Positions 7,875-59,676 of a DNA stretch of 64,000 nt are shown in pieces (the stretch's first letter is position 1; the number at the start of each line of letters is the position of its first letter). The position numbers were made by a program, and so were the translations under genes. The stretch is from Acidobacteriota bacterium. Its GTDB lineage: Bacteria > Acidobacteriota > Blastocatellia > UBA7656. Below the pieces are notes generated by a model. That model saw only the letters and a list, made by a program, of their open reading frames with translations. It was not told the DNA's origin and made no database searches. Where the stretch lies: contig JACQDB010000019.1 in the NCBI GenBank assembly GCA_016201275.1, positions 1-64,000 of the forward strand. The letters are read 5' to 3'.

Positions 7875-7991
7875 TAGCCCACGAAGTGGGCGCAAGCATA
7901 AAGCCACGGGTGTTAGCCCACGAAGTGGGCGCAAGCATAAAGCCACGGGGGTTAGCCCACGAAGTGGGCGCAAGCATAAAGCCACGGGTGT
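7875..7991. repeat. three tandem 39-bp units with hairpins
   Basis: Units begin at 7875, 7914 and 7953 and are almost identical; a partial fourth begins at 7992. Each contains the small palindrome GCCCACGAAGTGGGC followed by GCAAGCATAAAGCCACGGG. The CCACGGG end can pair with CCCGTGG in the partial unit. The array has no spacers of variable sequence. It resembles extragenic palindromic repeats rather than a CRISPR array. The same CCACGGG motif occurs in the long repeats at 2585 and 8286. Confidence 0.85.
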
Positions 7992-8022
7992 TAGCCCGTG
8001 GCTGCCAGCCCACCACACTAAT

Positions 8023-8285: not shown

Positions 8286-8650
8286 GTCACGACCCAGCGT
8301 GGTTGAAAATTGCCGGTCGCTTCGTTTTTGCGCCGTAGATGCACAGGAAAGTAGCCCGTGGTAGTGCCACAGGAATTAATTTTTGCGCCAGCGGCGCAGC
8401 GGAAATTAGCCCGTGGTGAAGCCACAGGAATTAATTTTGCGCCAGCGGCGCAGCGGAGATTAGCCCGTGGTGAAGCCACGGGAAGGTGAAGGCGGCTTGA
8501 CGGTCGCGCTCTGGAAGAGCGCCGGAAGCTTGCCGCAATCTATCTCCTGCACCCTTTCAGGGCGCGCCGTGTTTGTTCAACTTGATGCCAAGGCCTACAG
8601 CACTGGCTAATTTCCTACCCCCTGCGGGGCAAAGAGAGCTGGGTCGTTAC
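8286..8650. repeat. long interspersed repeat, copy B (365 bp), MITE-like
   Basis: Same organisation as copy A at 2585-2950, with well-preserved ends: GTCACGACCCAGC on the left and, read on the minus strand, GTAACGACCCAGC on the right. Internal hairpin units and the CTGCACCCTTTCAGGGCGCG palindrome are present. It lies directly upstream of the phosphatase gene at 8738, so it could influence that gene's 5' leader. Confidence 0.82.
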
Positions 8651-11305: not shown

Positions 11306-11947
11306 ATGGATTTACACGGCAATCTGTTTATCGAAGGCAAGGCGGGACGTTTGGAAGCCCTCTTGAAAGAACCGGAAGGCGACATTTTACGCGCCGCGAT
11401 TGTTTGTCATCCGCATCCGCTGTTTGGCGGCACCATGCATAACAAAGTTGTTTATCGCCTTGCCAAAGCCTTTCAAGATAGCGGCTTTGCGACTTTACGA
11501 TTTAATTTTCGCGGCACGCAACAAAGCGCTGGCGCGCACGATTACGGACGCGGCGAACCAGATGACGTGCGCTCGGCTATGCAGTTTATCGCAGCGCGTT
11601 ATCCGCAGGCGCAAGTGTGGGTCGCCGGTTTTTCTTTCGGCGCGGTGATGACTTTGAAAGCCGCCTGCACCGATAGCAAAGTTCACGCGCTGGTGCTGGC
11701 CGGATTGCCGGTGTCGAAATTCGGTGAGTACGATTGGCATCAAGCCGCGCTCTGCGACCAACCGAAATTGCTGGTGCAAGGCGCGAATGATGAATTCGGT
11801 TCGGTAGCGGATTTAGAGGATTTTTATCATCGCTTGAGCGGCGCGAAACAATTGAAGATCATCGCCGATGCCGATCATTTTTTTGTCGGACAATTACCAC
11901 AGCTTTACGACACGGTGCGCGACTTCATCGCCGCGTTGACCGAATGA
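11306..11947 (+). CDS. alpha/beta hydrolase
   Basis: A 213-residue cytoplasmic hydrolase without signal peptide. The fold is recognised from AAIVCHPHPLFGGTMHNKVV (oxyanion-side loop), FNFRG, and the nucleophile elbow GFSFGA (Gly-x-Ser-x-Gly). An acid in VQGANDEFG and a final His in ADADHFFVGQL complete the triad. This is the small YcjY/dienelactone-hydrolase-like type often called alpha/beta hydrolase of the CocE/NonD group. AGGA lies 9-10 nt before the ATG. It converges on the lipoprotein gene ending at 11952 with only 4 bp between them. The natural substrate is unknown. Confidence 0.87.
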   Translation: MDLHGNLFIEGKAGRLEALLKEPEGDILRAAIVCHPHPLFGGTMHNKVVYRLAKAFQDSGFATLRFNFRGTQQSAGAHDYGRGEPDDVRSAMQFIAARYPQAQVWVAGFSFGAVMTLKAACTDSKVHALVLAGLPVSKFGEYDWHQAALCDQPKLLVQGANDEFGSVADLEDFYHRLSGAKQLKIIADADHFFVGQLPQLYDTVRDFIAALTE

Positions 11948-14197: not shown

Positions 14198-14864
14198 CAG
14201 CACCTCTCCATCATTTAGCGTTTGCAGAATTCCAAAAGGTGACTCCCAGCGCACCCTTTCGCGCTGGGCAAGCGCGAGCCGTTCGTCTTTGCCAATCCCC
14301 TTGCCTTACGGAAGTTTGCTACGCGGTACGCGAAAATGAAATCGGCGCACCGAGCCGAAAGGTTCCGGGCTTCCATTGCGCCAGCCCTTGACGCAGCACA
14401 CACTCGTTGATGATGGCCGCGTCGTCTTGGCCCTTGCCTGCCGAAAACACGGCCTTGCAATTTTGCGTCACAACGATTGTCAACCAAGAAACAATCAACC
14501 AAGAAATAATCAACTGGGAAACATTCAACTGGGAAACATTCAACCGGCAAACCATCAACTGGGAAACCATCAACCGGGAAACTATAATCCATTGCCGCAT
14601 GAAGTTCAGCGCTCGCCGGATGACTACGGCAGCGACGCGGCGATGACGCGGCAAGATCGTTGGGGGGGTGAAAATCCCGCCTGCGTTTGACGTTGAATAA
14701 TAGTATGGCACGGTTCACTTGAGCATCCTTTTCTGCAAGCTTCGAGGGCGATGATTCGCGCCCACATTAAAAAACTTTTTCTCTTTTTGGGCAAGGCGAT
14801 TGGGGAAGCTTCAGGATGAACCGGATAACCCATAGCACCGGCTTGGCCTCGGTCAAGCACGCCG
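14198..14864. other. intergenic with minisatellite; open frames of doubtful status
   Basis: Contains the 15-bp array at 14482-14586, which keeps several frames open on both strands (for example 14319-14711 minus, ending TFRLGAPISFSRTA, and 14376-14690 plus). None has a ribosome-binding site or recognisable domain. A coding remnant cannot be excluded. Confidence 0.4.
14482..14586. repeat. minisatellite, seven 15-bp units
   Basis: Seven consecutive 15-bp units with consensus AAC(C/T)(A/G)(A/G)GAAAC(A/C)(A/T)TC start at 14482; two adjacent units are identical. The 15-bp period preserves reading frames and would encode pentapeptide repeats in any frame. It lies outside any confident gene. Confidence 0.9.
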
Positions 14865-36694: not shown

Positions 36695-36772
36695 TTAGTC
36701 CTTAGTCCTTAGTAAAAACATATAAACGACGGACTAGCAACTAAGGACTAAGGACTAAGGACTAAGGACTAA
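36695..36772. repeat. inverted 7-bp tandem repeats between nuoJ and nuoK
   Basis: About 2.5 units of TTAGTCC (36695-36713) face about 4.5 units of GGACTAA (36740-36772), so the RNA can fold into a stem of up to ~19 bp with a ~27-nt loop. Each GGACTAA repeat joint contains AAGGA. The last AAGGA (36764-36768) is 7 nt before the nuoK ATG and serves as its only visible ribosome-binding site. Confidence 0.85.
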
Positions 36773-51174: not shown

Positions 51175-53613
51175 TCACACTGGACGCTTAAAGCCGCGTT
51201 CGATGTCGCGCAAATCGAAGCGCATGATGATAGGTCTGCCGTGCGGACAGGTCATAGGATTTTGCGTTTTCATCAATTCGTTAATCAACCACTGCATCTT
51301 TTCATCGGTCAGCGGCATATTCACTTTGATGGCCGCTTTGCAGGCCAGCGAGGCGGCGATTTCGTCGCGTATGGTTTCAATGGTAAAGCTGCGGCGTTCG
51401 CGTTCGACTGCTGAAAGCAATTGTTGAACGATGGCCACAACATCTTTTGAGGTGATGCCCGCCGGTGCGGTTTTAATAGCAATGGTGCGCCCCGACAGTT
51501 CCATCGTCTCTATGCCTAGATGTTCCAGTTCCTCTTTGACCACTTTGAAGGCTTCGACTTCGGCGGGGGTTAAATCGAGAGTTTCGGGAATCAGCAGTGG
51601 TTGAATCTGTGTGGCGCGTGACATTCGGCCATCGCGTATCTGCTCAAACAAGATGCGCTCGTGAACGACGTGCTGATCGAAGAGCAACAAGCCTTCATCA
51701 TCGGTGGCGACGATGTAGCTGTCGCGGATTTGCCCCATCGGTTTAATGCCGTGCCAGTAGGCCGCAGGCGTTTCCTCGTGTGAAGATGGCGCGGTCGTCT
51801 CAGTTTGCGGTCCACCGATGCCAAGATCGCGCCCTGCCTGACTTGCCGTTTCGCCATCAACAAAATTGCGTAAAGTTGGCAACGCCGCTGTGTATATAGA
51901 CGGTTCAACGGCAGCCTGATGCAGTCGTGCGTCAACATCTTCATATGGCGGCTCACCAATTGCAAAAGAACTGTCAACGCTCTCAGCTTGCGAAGTCTGG
52001 CTCTGAAAAGATTCGCCTCGCGCAAATTCGCTTCGTGAAGATTCGCCTCGCGCAAATTCGTCTCGTGAAGATTCGCCTCGTAAAGATTCGTCTCGTGAAG
52101 ATTCGTCTCGCGCAAATTCGCCTCGTGAAGATTCACCCTGCGAAGATTCACCTTGTGAAGGCTTGAATTGAGAAGGCTCATCATTCAACGGTGAACCTTC
52201 GTTCAACAGCAACGTCACATGAGTAGACGACTCATCAGGCAACGGCGAACCTTCATGCATTCGCACTCCTTCAAACTGTCTCTCACTCGCCTCTTCAAAT
52301 CGTCTCTCACTTACTTCGTCAAATCCTCTCTCACTTACTTTTTCGAACTGTCTTTCACTTACTTTTTCGAACTGTCTTTCACTTACTTCGTCAAACCGTC
52401 TCTCATTCACCTCGCCACCCACAGCATTCAAGTCTTCGTTATCAGTCGCTGGTTGTGATGGCGCGGTCGGCGGCGGCGATTTTCGGGGCGTGGGCAACGC
52501 CTCCACCGGACTGAAGGTTCGCTGTGACCAGGTGGGCAGATCGCGCCAGCGCGGCGCATCAGTCTTGAGGCGCTCTTCGGCGCTTTTCACTTCGCGGTAA
52601 GTCCCAGGCAATCGCGTGATGGTTTGCGTCGCCTTCAACGACTGCGCGATGCCGTCGCGCACGAAGGCAAACAGCGCCGCTTCATGCAGAAAGCGCACTT
52701 CGGTCTTGGCCGGATGCACGTTCACATCCACTTCATCAGGCGGCACTTCGATGAACAGCACCGCTGCCGGATAGGTTCCCGAAGGCATCATCGAACGATA
52801 CGCCTCGGTCAAAGCGCGACTGATTAAAGGGTCTTTGACAAAACGACGGTTGACGAAAAGATATTGCGCGTCACGCGACGAGCGTTGCTCCTGCGGATTG
52901 GAAACGTAGCCGACGATCTTCAAGCCGTTCGCTTCGTGATTCACTTCAAGCAATTTTTTGAGCAGCCCACCGCCGAGAATTTGATAAGCGCGGTCTTTCA
53001 ATGACGCGACGTTGGCAACGCGAATCGAATCGCGCCCGTTGTTGATTAACAGAAAGGCGAGTTGCGGATTGGCCAAGGCGTAATGCTGCGCCAGATTGGT
53101 GATGTGAAAACTTTCCGTGGCATCGCTCTTCAAAAATTTGCGCCGCGCCGGAACATTGAAGAACAAATCCTTCACTTCGATTTCCGTGCCGCCCGGCCAC
53201 GCAATATCGCGCACGTTGACCAGCTTGCCGCCATGAAATTCCACTTCCGTGCCTTCCACATCGTCGTTGGTCTTGGTTCGCAAAATGAGTTTCGCCACGG
53301 CGGCTATGGAGGGCAGAGCTTCGCCGCGAAAGCCCAAGGTAGAGATGGTTTCCAAATCTTCAGCGGTTCGCAGTTTCGAGGTCGCGTGACGCTCAAAGGC
53401 GAGAATCGCGTCATCCCGCGTCATGCCTTCGCCATCGTCAATGATGCGTATGAGCCGTTTACCACCGGCTTCCACTTCGATATTGATTTTGCGCGCCGCT
53501 GCATCCAGAGCGTTTTCCAACAACTCTTTGACGACCGAAGCGGGGCGCTCGACCACTTCGCCCGCAGCGATTTTATTGGCCAGTGAATCAGGCAGGACTC
53601 TGATTTTTGACAT
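51175..53613 (-). CDS. mutL: DNA mismatch repair protein MutL, endonuclease type, expanded linker
   Basis: 812 residues; typical MutL is 600-650. The N-terminal GHKL ATPase is intact: NKIAAGEVVERPASVVKELL, DDGEGM, TLGFRGEALPSIAAV. The C-terminal domain carries the nicking-endonuclease signature DQHVVHERILFE, ACKAAIK and CPHGRP, so this MutL should nick DNA, as in Bacillus rather than E. coli. The extra length is the linker (~350-620), which holds six 8-residue repeats (ERRFDEVS-type, ~400-448) and ten to twelve 5-residue repeats (SRGES/ARDES-type, ~485-535). GAGGGGAAAT precedes the ATG. MutS is not in the window. Confidence 0.95.
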   Translation of the reverse strand: MSKIRVLPDSLANKIAAGEVVERPASVVKELLENALDAAARKINIEVEAGGKRLIRIIDDGEGMTRDDAILAFERHATSKLRTAEDLETISTLGFRGEALPSIAAVAKLILRTKTNDDVEGTEVEFHGGKLVNVRDIAWPGGTEIEVKDLFFNVPARRKFLKSDATESFHITNLAQHYALANPQLAFLLINNGRDSIRVANVASLKDRAYQILGGGLLKKLLEVNHEANGLKIVGYVSNPQEQRSSRDAQYLFVNRRFVKDPLISRALTEAYRSMMPSGTYPAAVLFIEVPPDEVDVNVHPAKTEVRFLHEAALFAFVRDGIAQSLKATQTITRLPGTYREVKSAEERLKTDAPRWRDLPTWSQRTFSPVEALPTPRKSPPPTAPSQPATDNEDLNAVGGEVNERRFDEVSERQFEKVSERQFEKVSERGFDEVSERRFEEASERQFEGVRMHEGSPLPDESSTHVTLLLNEGSPLNDEPSQFKPSQGESSQGESSRGEFARDESSRDESLRGESSRDEFARGESSRSEFARGESFQSQTSQAESVDSSFAIGEPPYEDVDARLHQAAVEPSIYTAALPTLRNFVDGETASQAGRDLGIGGPQTETTAPSSHEETPAAYWHGIKPMGQIRDSYIVATDDEGLLLFDQHVVHERILFEQIRDGRMSRATQIQPLLIPETLDLTPAEVEAFKVVKEELEHLGIETMELSGRTIAIKTAPAGITSKDVVAIVQQLLSAVERERRSFTIETIRDEIAASLACKAAIKVNMPLTDEKMQWLINELMKTQNPMTCPHGRPIIMRFDLRDIERGFKRPV
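52011..52160 (-). repeat. 15-bp minisatellite inside mutL (10 units)
   Basis: Ten units of consensus ATTCGCCTCG(C/T)G(C/A)A(A/G) on the plus strand start at 52011. In the mutL frame they encode five-residue acidic/Ser repeats. In another minus-strand frame they encode NL-based pentads (ANLHE, TNLRE) resembling pentapeptide repeats. Confidence 0.92.
52271..52414 (-). repeat. 24-bp minisatellite inside mutL (6 units)
   Basis: Six units of consensus TC(A/G)AACTGTCT(C/T)TCACTTACTT(C/T)(G/T), two of them nearly identical neighbours, encode the ERQFEKVS-type 8-residue repeats of the linker. Confidence 0.92.
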
Positions 53614-54039: not shown

Positions 54040-54162
54040 TGCGTGAATACCGAATCATGATGAATGATGAATCATGATGTAACCATGAAGGCGGTCTTCG
54101 CTTGGCCTAGATTGGCTTGCTCAACCACCTATGCACGAGCCTGCGTTTGCTACGTTGCACCA

Positions 54163-54231
54163 CTCACGCTTCACGCTTCACCATTCACGCTTCAGGTTTC
54201 ATCATTCACTATTCACGCTTCACGCGGTTCA
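54163..54231. repeat. 7-bp repeat array (TTCACGC family)
   Basis: Units such as TTCACGC, TTCACCA and TTCATCA run for about 69 bp and reach the stop codon of the DUF4440-like gene. A related run in the opposite sense (GAATCATGATGAATGATGAA) lies at about 54052-54077. Confidence 0.7.
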
Positions 54232-58530: not shown

Positions 58531-59676
58531 TCACTTTCCACTTTCCACTTTCCACTTTCCACTTTTGTCATAGACGGTCACCTCTGGGCGTTGGCGCAGG
58601 GCGGCAAACAGGGCAAACACTTCGCGGTCGCTGCGACGGGCTTGCTGTTTTTCGTCGCGGCGGCGTTGGCGAATTTGCGGCAGGCGCTTGACCGCTGCGC
58701 TGACAGAGAGCAGAAAGCTGGGCTGCAAACGCAACGGCGCAAGCAACGCCAACAATGCTACCCACAACAAGTGCGAAGTCAGCAGAACGCCATCGTGCAG
58801 ATGAATCCAGTGATAGATGAGGCGATTGCGTTGCTCGATCATTCGCACACGCCGTTGATTGAGTTTGGCGATGGTCGAAGAGAGGCGATGACGCGCCAGC
58901 GAACGCGGCTCGTACACAATCGTGTAGCCGCGTTTCCAGGCGCGATAACTCAACTCGACATCCTCCCAGTAAAACGGCGACAACAAGTCCTCGAAACCGC
59001 CCACCGCTAAAAACTTCTGGCGGTCAAACATCGCCGCACCGCCGCCAGCAAACATGGAAAAAAACGGCGAATTTATTGGGCTTTTTGCATCTTCACGGGT
59101 CGCATAGCTTTGATGAACGCGAATAAAACCGCTGGCAAAAGCGCCGACTTTGCCGGTTCCGACTTCGCGCCCGCTTGTCAGATCAACCACTCGACAATGC
59201 GCCGCAAAGACCTTTTCATCGGCAAAGTTTTCCACCAGCGGCGCAATCGCATCGGCGGCGATTTCCACATCATTATTGAGCAAAAGGATTAATGGATAAC
59301 GCGCCGCTGCGATGCCTTTGTTACAGGCGGCGCTGAACCCCTTATTGATTTCATTCTTCACCCAACGCAATTCAGCACGCCAACCGCTTTCGGTCGCTAG
59401 TGGTTTGGCAACCTGCTCATTCGCGCCATCGCGGTTTGCCGCCGTGTGCAGGAATAACGATTTCAAAAATTCATCTTGAGACGGCAAACTTTTGCTCAGA
59501 CTTTCCAACCAGGCAATCGTATCATCGTGGCTGCCATCATCCACGATGAGCAGTTCGATCTGCTGGCGAGACGATTCCGCATAGCGTTGTGCTGCCGCCA
59601 ATACCGATGGCAGAAATTCTTGCAGTAGAGATAGCCCGTTCCAGGTGGGAATGACGATGCTGACATTTTCTTTCAT
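58531..59676 (-). CDS. glycosyltransferase family 2
   Basis: About 381 residues. The GT-A core is clear: VSIVIPTWNGLSLL, LLIVDDGSHDDT, NKGFSAACNKGIAAA, LLLNNDVEI (the metal-binding DxD equivalent), GGGAAMFDRQKFLAVGGFED and FYWEDVELSYRAWKRGY. The tail has one or two hydrophobic helices (LLWVALLALLAPLRL), suggesting membrane association, as in rhamnosyl-type GT2 enzymes. The last codons (KSGKWKVESGK) are encoded by the 7-bp repeat TTTCCAC at the gene's 3' end. The ATG at 59676 is preferred; a TTG at 59712 with AAGG upstream is possible. Confidence 0.9.
   Translation of the reverse strand: MKENVSIVIPTWNGLSLLQEFLPSVLAAAQRYAESSRQQIELLIVDDGSHDDTIAWLESLSKSLPSQDEFLKSLFLHTAANRDGANEQVAKPLATESGWRAELRWVKNEINKGFSAACNKGIAAARYPLILLLNNDVEIAADAIAPLVENFADEKVFAAHCRVVDLTSGREVGTGKVGAFASGFIRVHQSYATREDAKSPINSPFFSMFAGGGAAMFDRQKFLAVGGFEDLLSPFYWEDVELSYRAWKRGYTIVYEPRSLARHRLSSTIAKLNQRRVRMIEQRNRLIYHWIHLHDGVLLTSHLLWVALLALLAPLRLQPSFLLSVSAAVKRLPQIRQRRRDEKQQARRSDREVFALFAALRQRPEVTVYDKSGKWKVESGK
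58533..58566. repeat. 7-bp tandem repeat TTTCCAC overlapping the GT2 3' end
   Basis: About 4.5 units of TTTCCAC form the final codons and stop of the GT2 gene on the minus strand, adjoining repeat copy C. Confidence 0.85.

Follow-up and report, generated by a model that had tools for sequence, protein, structure and literature searches.

A tandem repeat within mutL is already known from Salmonella and E. coli, where three 6-bp units lie near the start of the gene and their copy number switches MutL on or off (PMC2955026). In the tolA gene of E. coli, short in-frame repeats with a period divisible by three occupy a region that connects domains, and their number, which changes via RecA-dependent recombination, differs among strains and alters stress tolerance (PMC3477136). 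Repeats in the open reading frames (ORFs) of Borgs, which are archaeal and extrachromosomal, likewise have unit lengths divisible by three and give rise to disordered stretches that often lie between domains (PMC9879509). A proteome-wide survey of frameshifted tandem repeats has further described how the same period persists in the other reading frames with a new composition and sometimes with structure (PMC12871928).

The mutL gene described here lies in a 64,000-nucleotide stretch of an Acidobacteriota genome (hereafter the window) and carries two tandem arrays in the linker between its folded domains. In contrast to the 6-bp repeat of Salmonella and E. coli mutL, these arrays are long, sit in a disordered linker, and leave the MutL frame, and presumably the protein's function, intact. 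Whereas copy-number variation and the resulting phenotypes have been measured in tolA, whose repeat region is helical, the mutL arrays are known from one genome and their linker is predicted to be disordered. The Borg repeats consist of near-perfect units, while those found here belong to a chromosomal repair gene and are ∼80% alike; and where the frameshift survey covered proteomes, the present case is a single one with a pentapeptide-like product. A search of the literature on MutL linkers with tandem repeats, repeats in Acidobacteria and alternative frames of pentapeptide repeats returned nothing describing such a case, although the general facts, that ORF repeats in multiples of three yield disorder and that repeats persist in shifted frames, are already described (PMC9879509; PMC12871928). 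The arrays are very probably the product of in-frame minisatellite growth in the disordered MutL linker of this lineage, with an accidental likeness to pentapeptide repeats in the +1 frame. The features concerned are as follows.

51175..53613, minus strand: mutL, encoding an endonuclease-type protein of 812 aa (Pfam matches and an uninterrupted ORF)

51766..52560, minus strand: MutL linker, residues about 352-616, between the ATPase and the C-terminal domain, disordered by prediction (AlphaFold2; poorly conserved alignment columns)

52000..52149, minus strand: 15-bp array of ten units, which the MutL frame reads as pentads E-(S/F)-(S/A)-R-(G/D) and the +1 frame as N-L-x-E-(A/T) (unit table and Tandem Repeats Finder, TRF)

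52267..52410, minus strand: 24-bp array of six units, read as the octad V-S-E-R-x-F-(D/E)-(E/K) (unit table and TRF)

51591..52184, minus strand: overlapping ORF of 197 aa in the +1 frame, with an ATG at 52184 (ORF list), judged not to be a gene

The product of mutL has the expected architecture, with a GHKL ATPase and transducer at the N-terminus and a dimerization domain at the C-terminus, as indicated by Pfam matches above cut-off (DNA_mis_repair, 131.6 bits; MutL_C, 118 bits; HATPase_c_3, 48.6 bits) and by alignment motifs. Its endonuclease motif, DQHVVHERILFE at residues 646-657, is of the DQHA(X)2E(X)4E type with V for A; D646, Q647, H648, and E652 are invariant in an alignment of 19 sequences, and a CPHGRP motif is found close to the C-terminus. 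This is the single mutL match in the entire 6.84-Mb genome, which also encodes two full-length mutS1 genes (G000:C156:550-3192 and G000:C114:20731-23244, 1008 and 891 bits), and the mismatch-repair pathway therefore looks intact. AlphaFold2, supplied with 19 sequences, assigned a pLDDT below 50 throughout residues 352-616, both arrays included, and mostly above 85 to the flanking domains.

A preliminary description of this DNA had reported six 24-bp and ten 15-bp units in the mutL linker at 52011-52414; both counts are confirmed by TRF and by the unit table, and the coordinates are correct within a few bases. TRF placed the 15-bp array at 52008-52160 (period 15, 10.2 copies, score 166) and the 24-bp array at 52265-52405 (period 24, 5.9 copies, score 156), with a better score for the former when read as a 30-bp higher-order unit (201) and a score of 188 for a 72-bp higher-order unit of the latter. 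The 30-bp repeat forms the middle of the 15-bp array and the units at both edges are more divergent, while units 2 and 3 of the 24-bp array are identical in DNA, which together is the pattern usual for growth by repeated duplication. Both arrays lie in frame within the uninterrupted mutL ORF and have MutL domains on either side, as in-frame coding minisatellites, and the tandem repeats themselves are far beyond chance. In the MutL frame, the 15-bp array scored 16.9 bits against the GETHR pentapeptide repeat (PF05671), under the curated cut-off of 22.4.

The earlier remark that unit sizes divisible by three preserve the MutL frame is correct, and the principle is general in this genome. The background was taken from stretches sampled over 1.25 Mb of the genome, in which 159 tandem-array loci were found, 11 of them with period 15. 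The period was divisible by three in 35 of the 46 arrays within ORFs of at least 250 aa vs 38 of the 92 outside (Fisher P 1e-4), and by score the two mutL arrays rank second and fourth among those 46. Array density is alike in the nearest relative (125 vs 122 per Mb), which indicates a shared propensity, the mutL arrays themselves being peculiar to the lineage.

The comparison among relatives covered seven genomes of the family in five genera, with the source genome alone in its genus. The arrays are absent from all five same-family MutLs that could be read across the linker (656-710 aa), the MutL ORF of the sixth relative (G003) being interrupted by a contig end, and on this sequence comparison they are lineage-specific. 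At 289 aa, the linker is the longest among 96 distinct MutL proteins (median 114), and the second longest is that of the nearest relative (176 aa). About 98 of these residues belong to the arrays; without them the 289 aa shrink to about 191, close to 176, so the arrays account for nearly all of the excess length over the nearest relative's linker.

In-frame growth would have begun with two unrelated short linker sequences that were amplified in tandem, presumably by slippage or unequal recombination. Expansions that kept the frame would alone have survived, leaving units of 15 and 24 bp and a linker longer by about 98 residues, and the arrays would have persisted because a linker tolerates hydrophilic, charged repeats, probably at near-neutral cost. 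The arrays may extend the reach of the MutL arms, and an effect on repair, through the tuning by variable linker length that the preliminary description had suggested, is plausible in view of published results on the linkers of E. coli and yeast MutL. So read, the gene would provide a clear example of the disordered linker of a core repair protein growing by tandem duplication.

MutL linkers elsewhere also contain arrays. TRF on 96 MutL genes, part of which had been picked for long open frames so that a slight bias is possible, found 17 arrays, spread over 12 proteins, in 31.8 kb of linker sequence vs three in 143 kb of folded domains (binomial P 2e-10), and the excess holds without the mutL of the window (15 of 18 arrays, P 4e-9). 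The linker repeats are mutually unrelated, with 42-bp units in one Desulfamplus, 24/21-bp units in another Desulfamplus, 36-bp units in Desulfobacula, and 7- or 8-bp units in others. This suggests that, compared with the folded domains of MutL, its linkers have repeatedly acquired tandem repeats in unrelated bacteria. The 42-bp array in one of these Desulfamplus linkers (L085, ORF 1369-1543; 4.2 copies) has 96% matches, and its nearly perfect units mark it as very recent; a second Desulfamplus MutL (L111), 44% identical to L085, has different arrays. Linker arrays with periods that are not multiples of three (7, 8, 14, or 16 bp) occur in Desulfobacterota and a planctomycete (MutL ORF positions L086 1107-1159, L102 1120-1241, L109 1212-1300, and L083 1097-1128). 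Counted from the array start, the shifted frame reaches a stop after 20 or 31 codons in L086 and after 71 or 80 codons in L102, so that MutL could be turned off and on as single units are lost or gained.

A further claim, compatible with an origin by in-frame growth, would be that the number of array units differs within the species, setting the reach or activity of MutL as an evolvable rheostat of mismatch repair. Linker length does matter in other MutLs: when the E. coli linker was reduced from 100 to 60 residues, incision beyond roadblocks was lost (PMC6902014), and yeast linkers that were shortened, scrambled, or lengthened impaired repair to varying degrees (PMC6393296). The strain differences in tolA (PMC3477136) and the identical second and third 24-bp units, which point to a recent duplication, speak in the same direction. 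However, the 40% shorter E. coli linker caused no mutator phenotype in vivo (PMC6902014), and the unrelated repeats used by the array-bearing linkers of unrelated bacteria fit tolerance rather than a tuned device. That the arrays are tuned in this way, as an addition to their origin, is thus considered unlikely. If linker length affects roadblock bypass on DNA, such arrays would offer natural length variants for testing.

The second part of the preliminary description concerned another reading frame, in which the 15-bp array had been noted to give NLHEA/NLRET pentads on the minus strand. These pentads are indeed present: read in the +1 frame, the mutL strand gives NLRRV NLHEA NLRET NLHET NLYEA NLHET NLREA NLHEA NLREA NLFRA and matches the Pentapeptide family PF00805 at 57.6 bits (E 8.5e-16), above the cut-off of 20.2. 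A search of the whole genome with PF00805 found matches solely in the array and in one true pentapeptide gene. A period of 15 bp, however, forces a period of five residues in all six frames, and under in-frame growth of the linker the resemblance to the A(D/N)LXX rule would be an accident, its 5-aa period following from the 15-bp period of the DNA.

How often chance produces such a match was estimated with a purpose-built pentad scoring model, for which 27 pentapeptide ORFs from this class served as the source and which was checked against Pfam on ten peptides. It was applied to 15-mers drawn at random, in frame, from this genome, each repeated perfectly and scored in the five frames other than its own. 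In this simulation, an off-frame pentapeptide score of at least 20 was obtained for about 32% of the 15-mers, and the array's own score, 58, was reached by 1.6%; linker-like 15-mers and those taken from other MutL linkers gave similar frequencies. Eight of nine random repeats with model scores of 20-72 passed the PF00805 cut-off, at 22.6 to 67.1 bits. As random 15-bp repeats also pass, the PF00805 score does not discriminate for a 15-bp array, and a Pfam pentapeptide match on such an array is weak evidence, given the large share of random 15-bp repeats that pass in some frame. Extrapolation from the genome sample gives some 60 period-15 arrays per genome, about 16 of them long, and an expectation of ∼0.2-0.6 matches of this kind per genome, which makes the match unremarkable once many windows are read. 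The pentapeptide resemblance is within chance for a repeat of such length and is most likely a by-product. What counts against a chance origin is the strict A-N-L reading, which for a single array is still roughly a 1-in-100 coincidence: among 15-mers, 1.0% have a strict A[ND]L triplet in another frame, and 5.5% a looser one.

The substitutions that separate the units bear on both frames. Ten distinct changes distinguish the 15-bp units. In the MutL frame, four of them are synonymous where 3.3 would be expected, and in the +1 frame two where 2.9 would be; as these counts are near expectation, neither frame shows constraint, and the +1 frame shows less of it than the MutL frame.

The same description had offered two origins for the pentads, a captured repeat or a by-product. 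In the former, a ∼150-bp piece of a true pentapeptide-repeat gene would have inserted out of frame into the mutL linker, by chance without a stop in the new frame, and then expanded, so that a single DNA repeat would encode a β-helix when read one way and a flexible linker when read the other. Besides the Pfam score of the +1 frame, the variation between units is in keeping with such a source, in that it retains L (CTT and TTG both encode Leu) and preserves the pentapeptide-model score to a somewhat greater extent than expected of random changes (P = 0.02, in one of several tests and resting mainly on one three-base variant). A phage contig (IMG/VR) with a true pentapeptide gene and similar codons also shows 72% identity over 108 bp, but the search pattern that retrieved it had been built from the motif, so that most of the likeness is simply imposed by encoding A-N-L-R-E with GC-rich codons. 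Between the array and the genome's one other pentapeptide gene there are only short chance matches. A 33-base motif-based pattern of the array DNA, allowing up to three mismatches, was found in none of 296 other Acidobacteriota genomes; searches with the array DNA returned only itself at better than E 0.04 in its own genome and nothing below E 0.28 in six same-family genomes, and a blastn search of plasmid and phage records was empty, which is a weak negative as the low-complexity filter was on. The +1 frame has no third-position excess, and the 24-bp array needs no pentapeptide source. With a chance-level match, no synonymous excess in the +1 frame, and no DNA source found, the by-product is favored and the captured piece of a pentapeptide gene is quite improbable. 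A match in another genome (L211), whose open frame is short and which was considered as a second out-of-frame case, is actually a pentapeptide stretch truncated by the contig end. Phage contig L315 carries at 11389-11910 a pentapeptide-repeat gene of 45-bp higher-order units, which adjoins several other tandem arrays.

If the +1 frame were translated, its product would be a small pentapeptide-repeat protein encoded over mutL; an ATG at 52184 and 197 codons free of stops are available for it. The family match, however, is confined to the array part of this ORF, and what follows the array is an out-of-frame reading of MutL that has no homologue. Relatives lack the frame, no excess of synonymous changes is seen in it, and by these comparisons it does not appear to be a real gene. 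AlphaFold2 without an alignment predicted one long helix (residues 2-89) and no β-helix, a weak indication from a single-sequence run without a true-member control. A second protein encoded over mutL is thus extremely improbable, and in-frame growth of the linker with an accidental +1 likeness is the preferred reading of the 15-bp array.

Other repeats were encountered in the window and the genome sample. A second 15-bp array in the window, at 14480-14582, is intergenic and consists of 6.9 copies of TCAACCGGGAAACAA; it is pentapeptide-like in no frame. Heptamer arrays (ACTAAGG, GTTACTG, and others) lie mostly outside genes, at 36731-36772, 54158-54225, and 58532-58565 of the window and at many places in the genome sample; their frequency is about 29 per Mb in this genome, compared with 47 per Mb in a relative (G001) and none in 0.2 Mb of another genome of the family (G004). 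Repeats of 39-66 bp with palindromic cores (GCGCCAGAGGCGC; CCCCCCGACGGCAGTCGGGGG), mostly intergenic, are found at 2624-2784, 7875-7997, and 8346-8484 of the window and at L186, L188, and other loci; they recur across the genome sample and appear REP-like. An 867-aa gene of the same genome (L148 2175-3300) contains an in-frame repeat of 255 bp in 4.4 copies.
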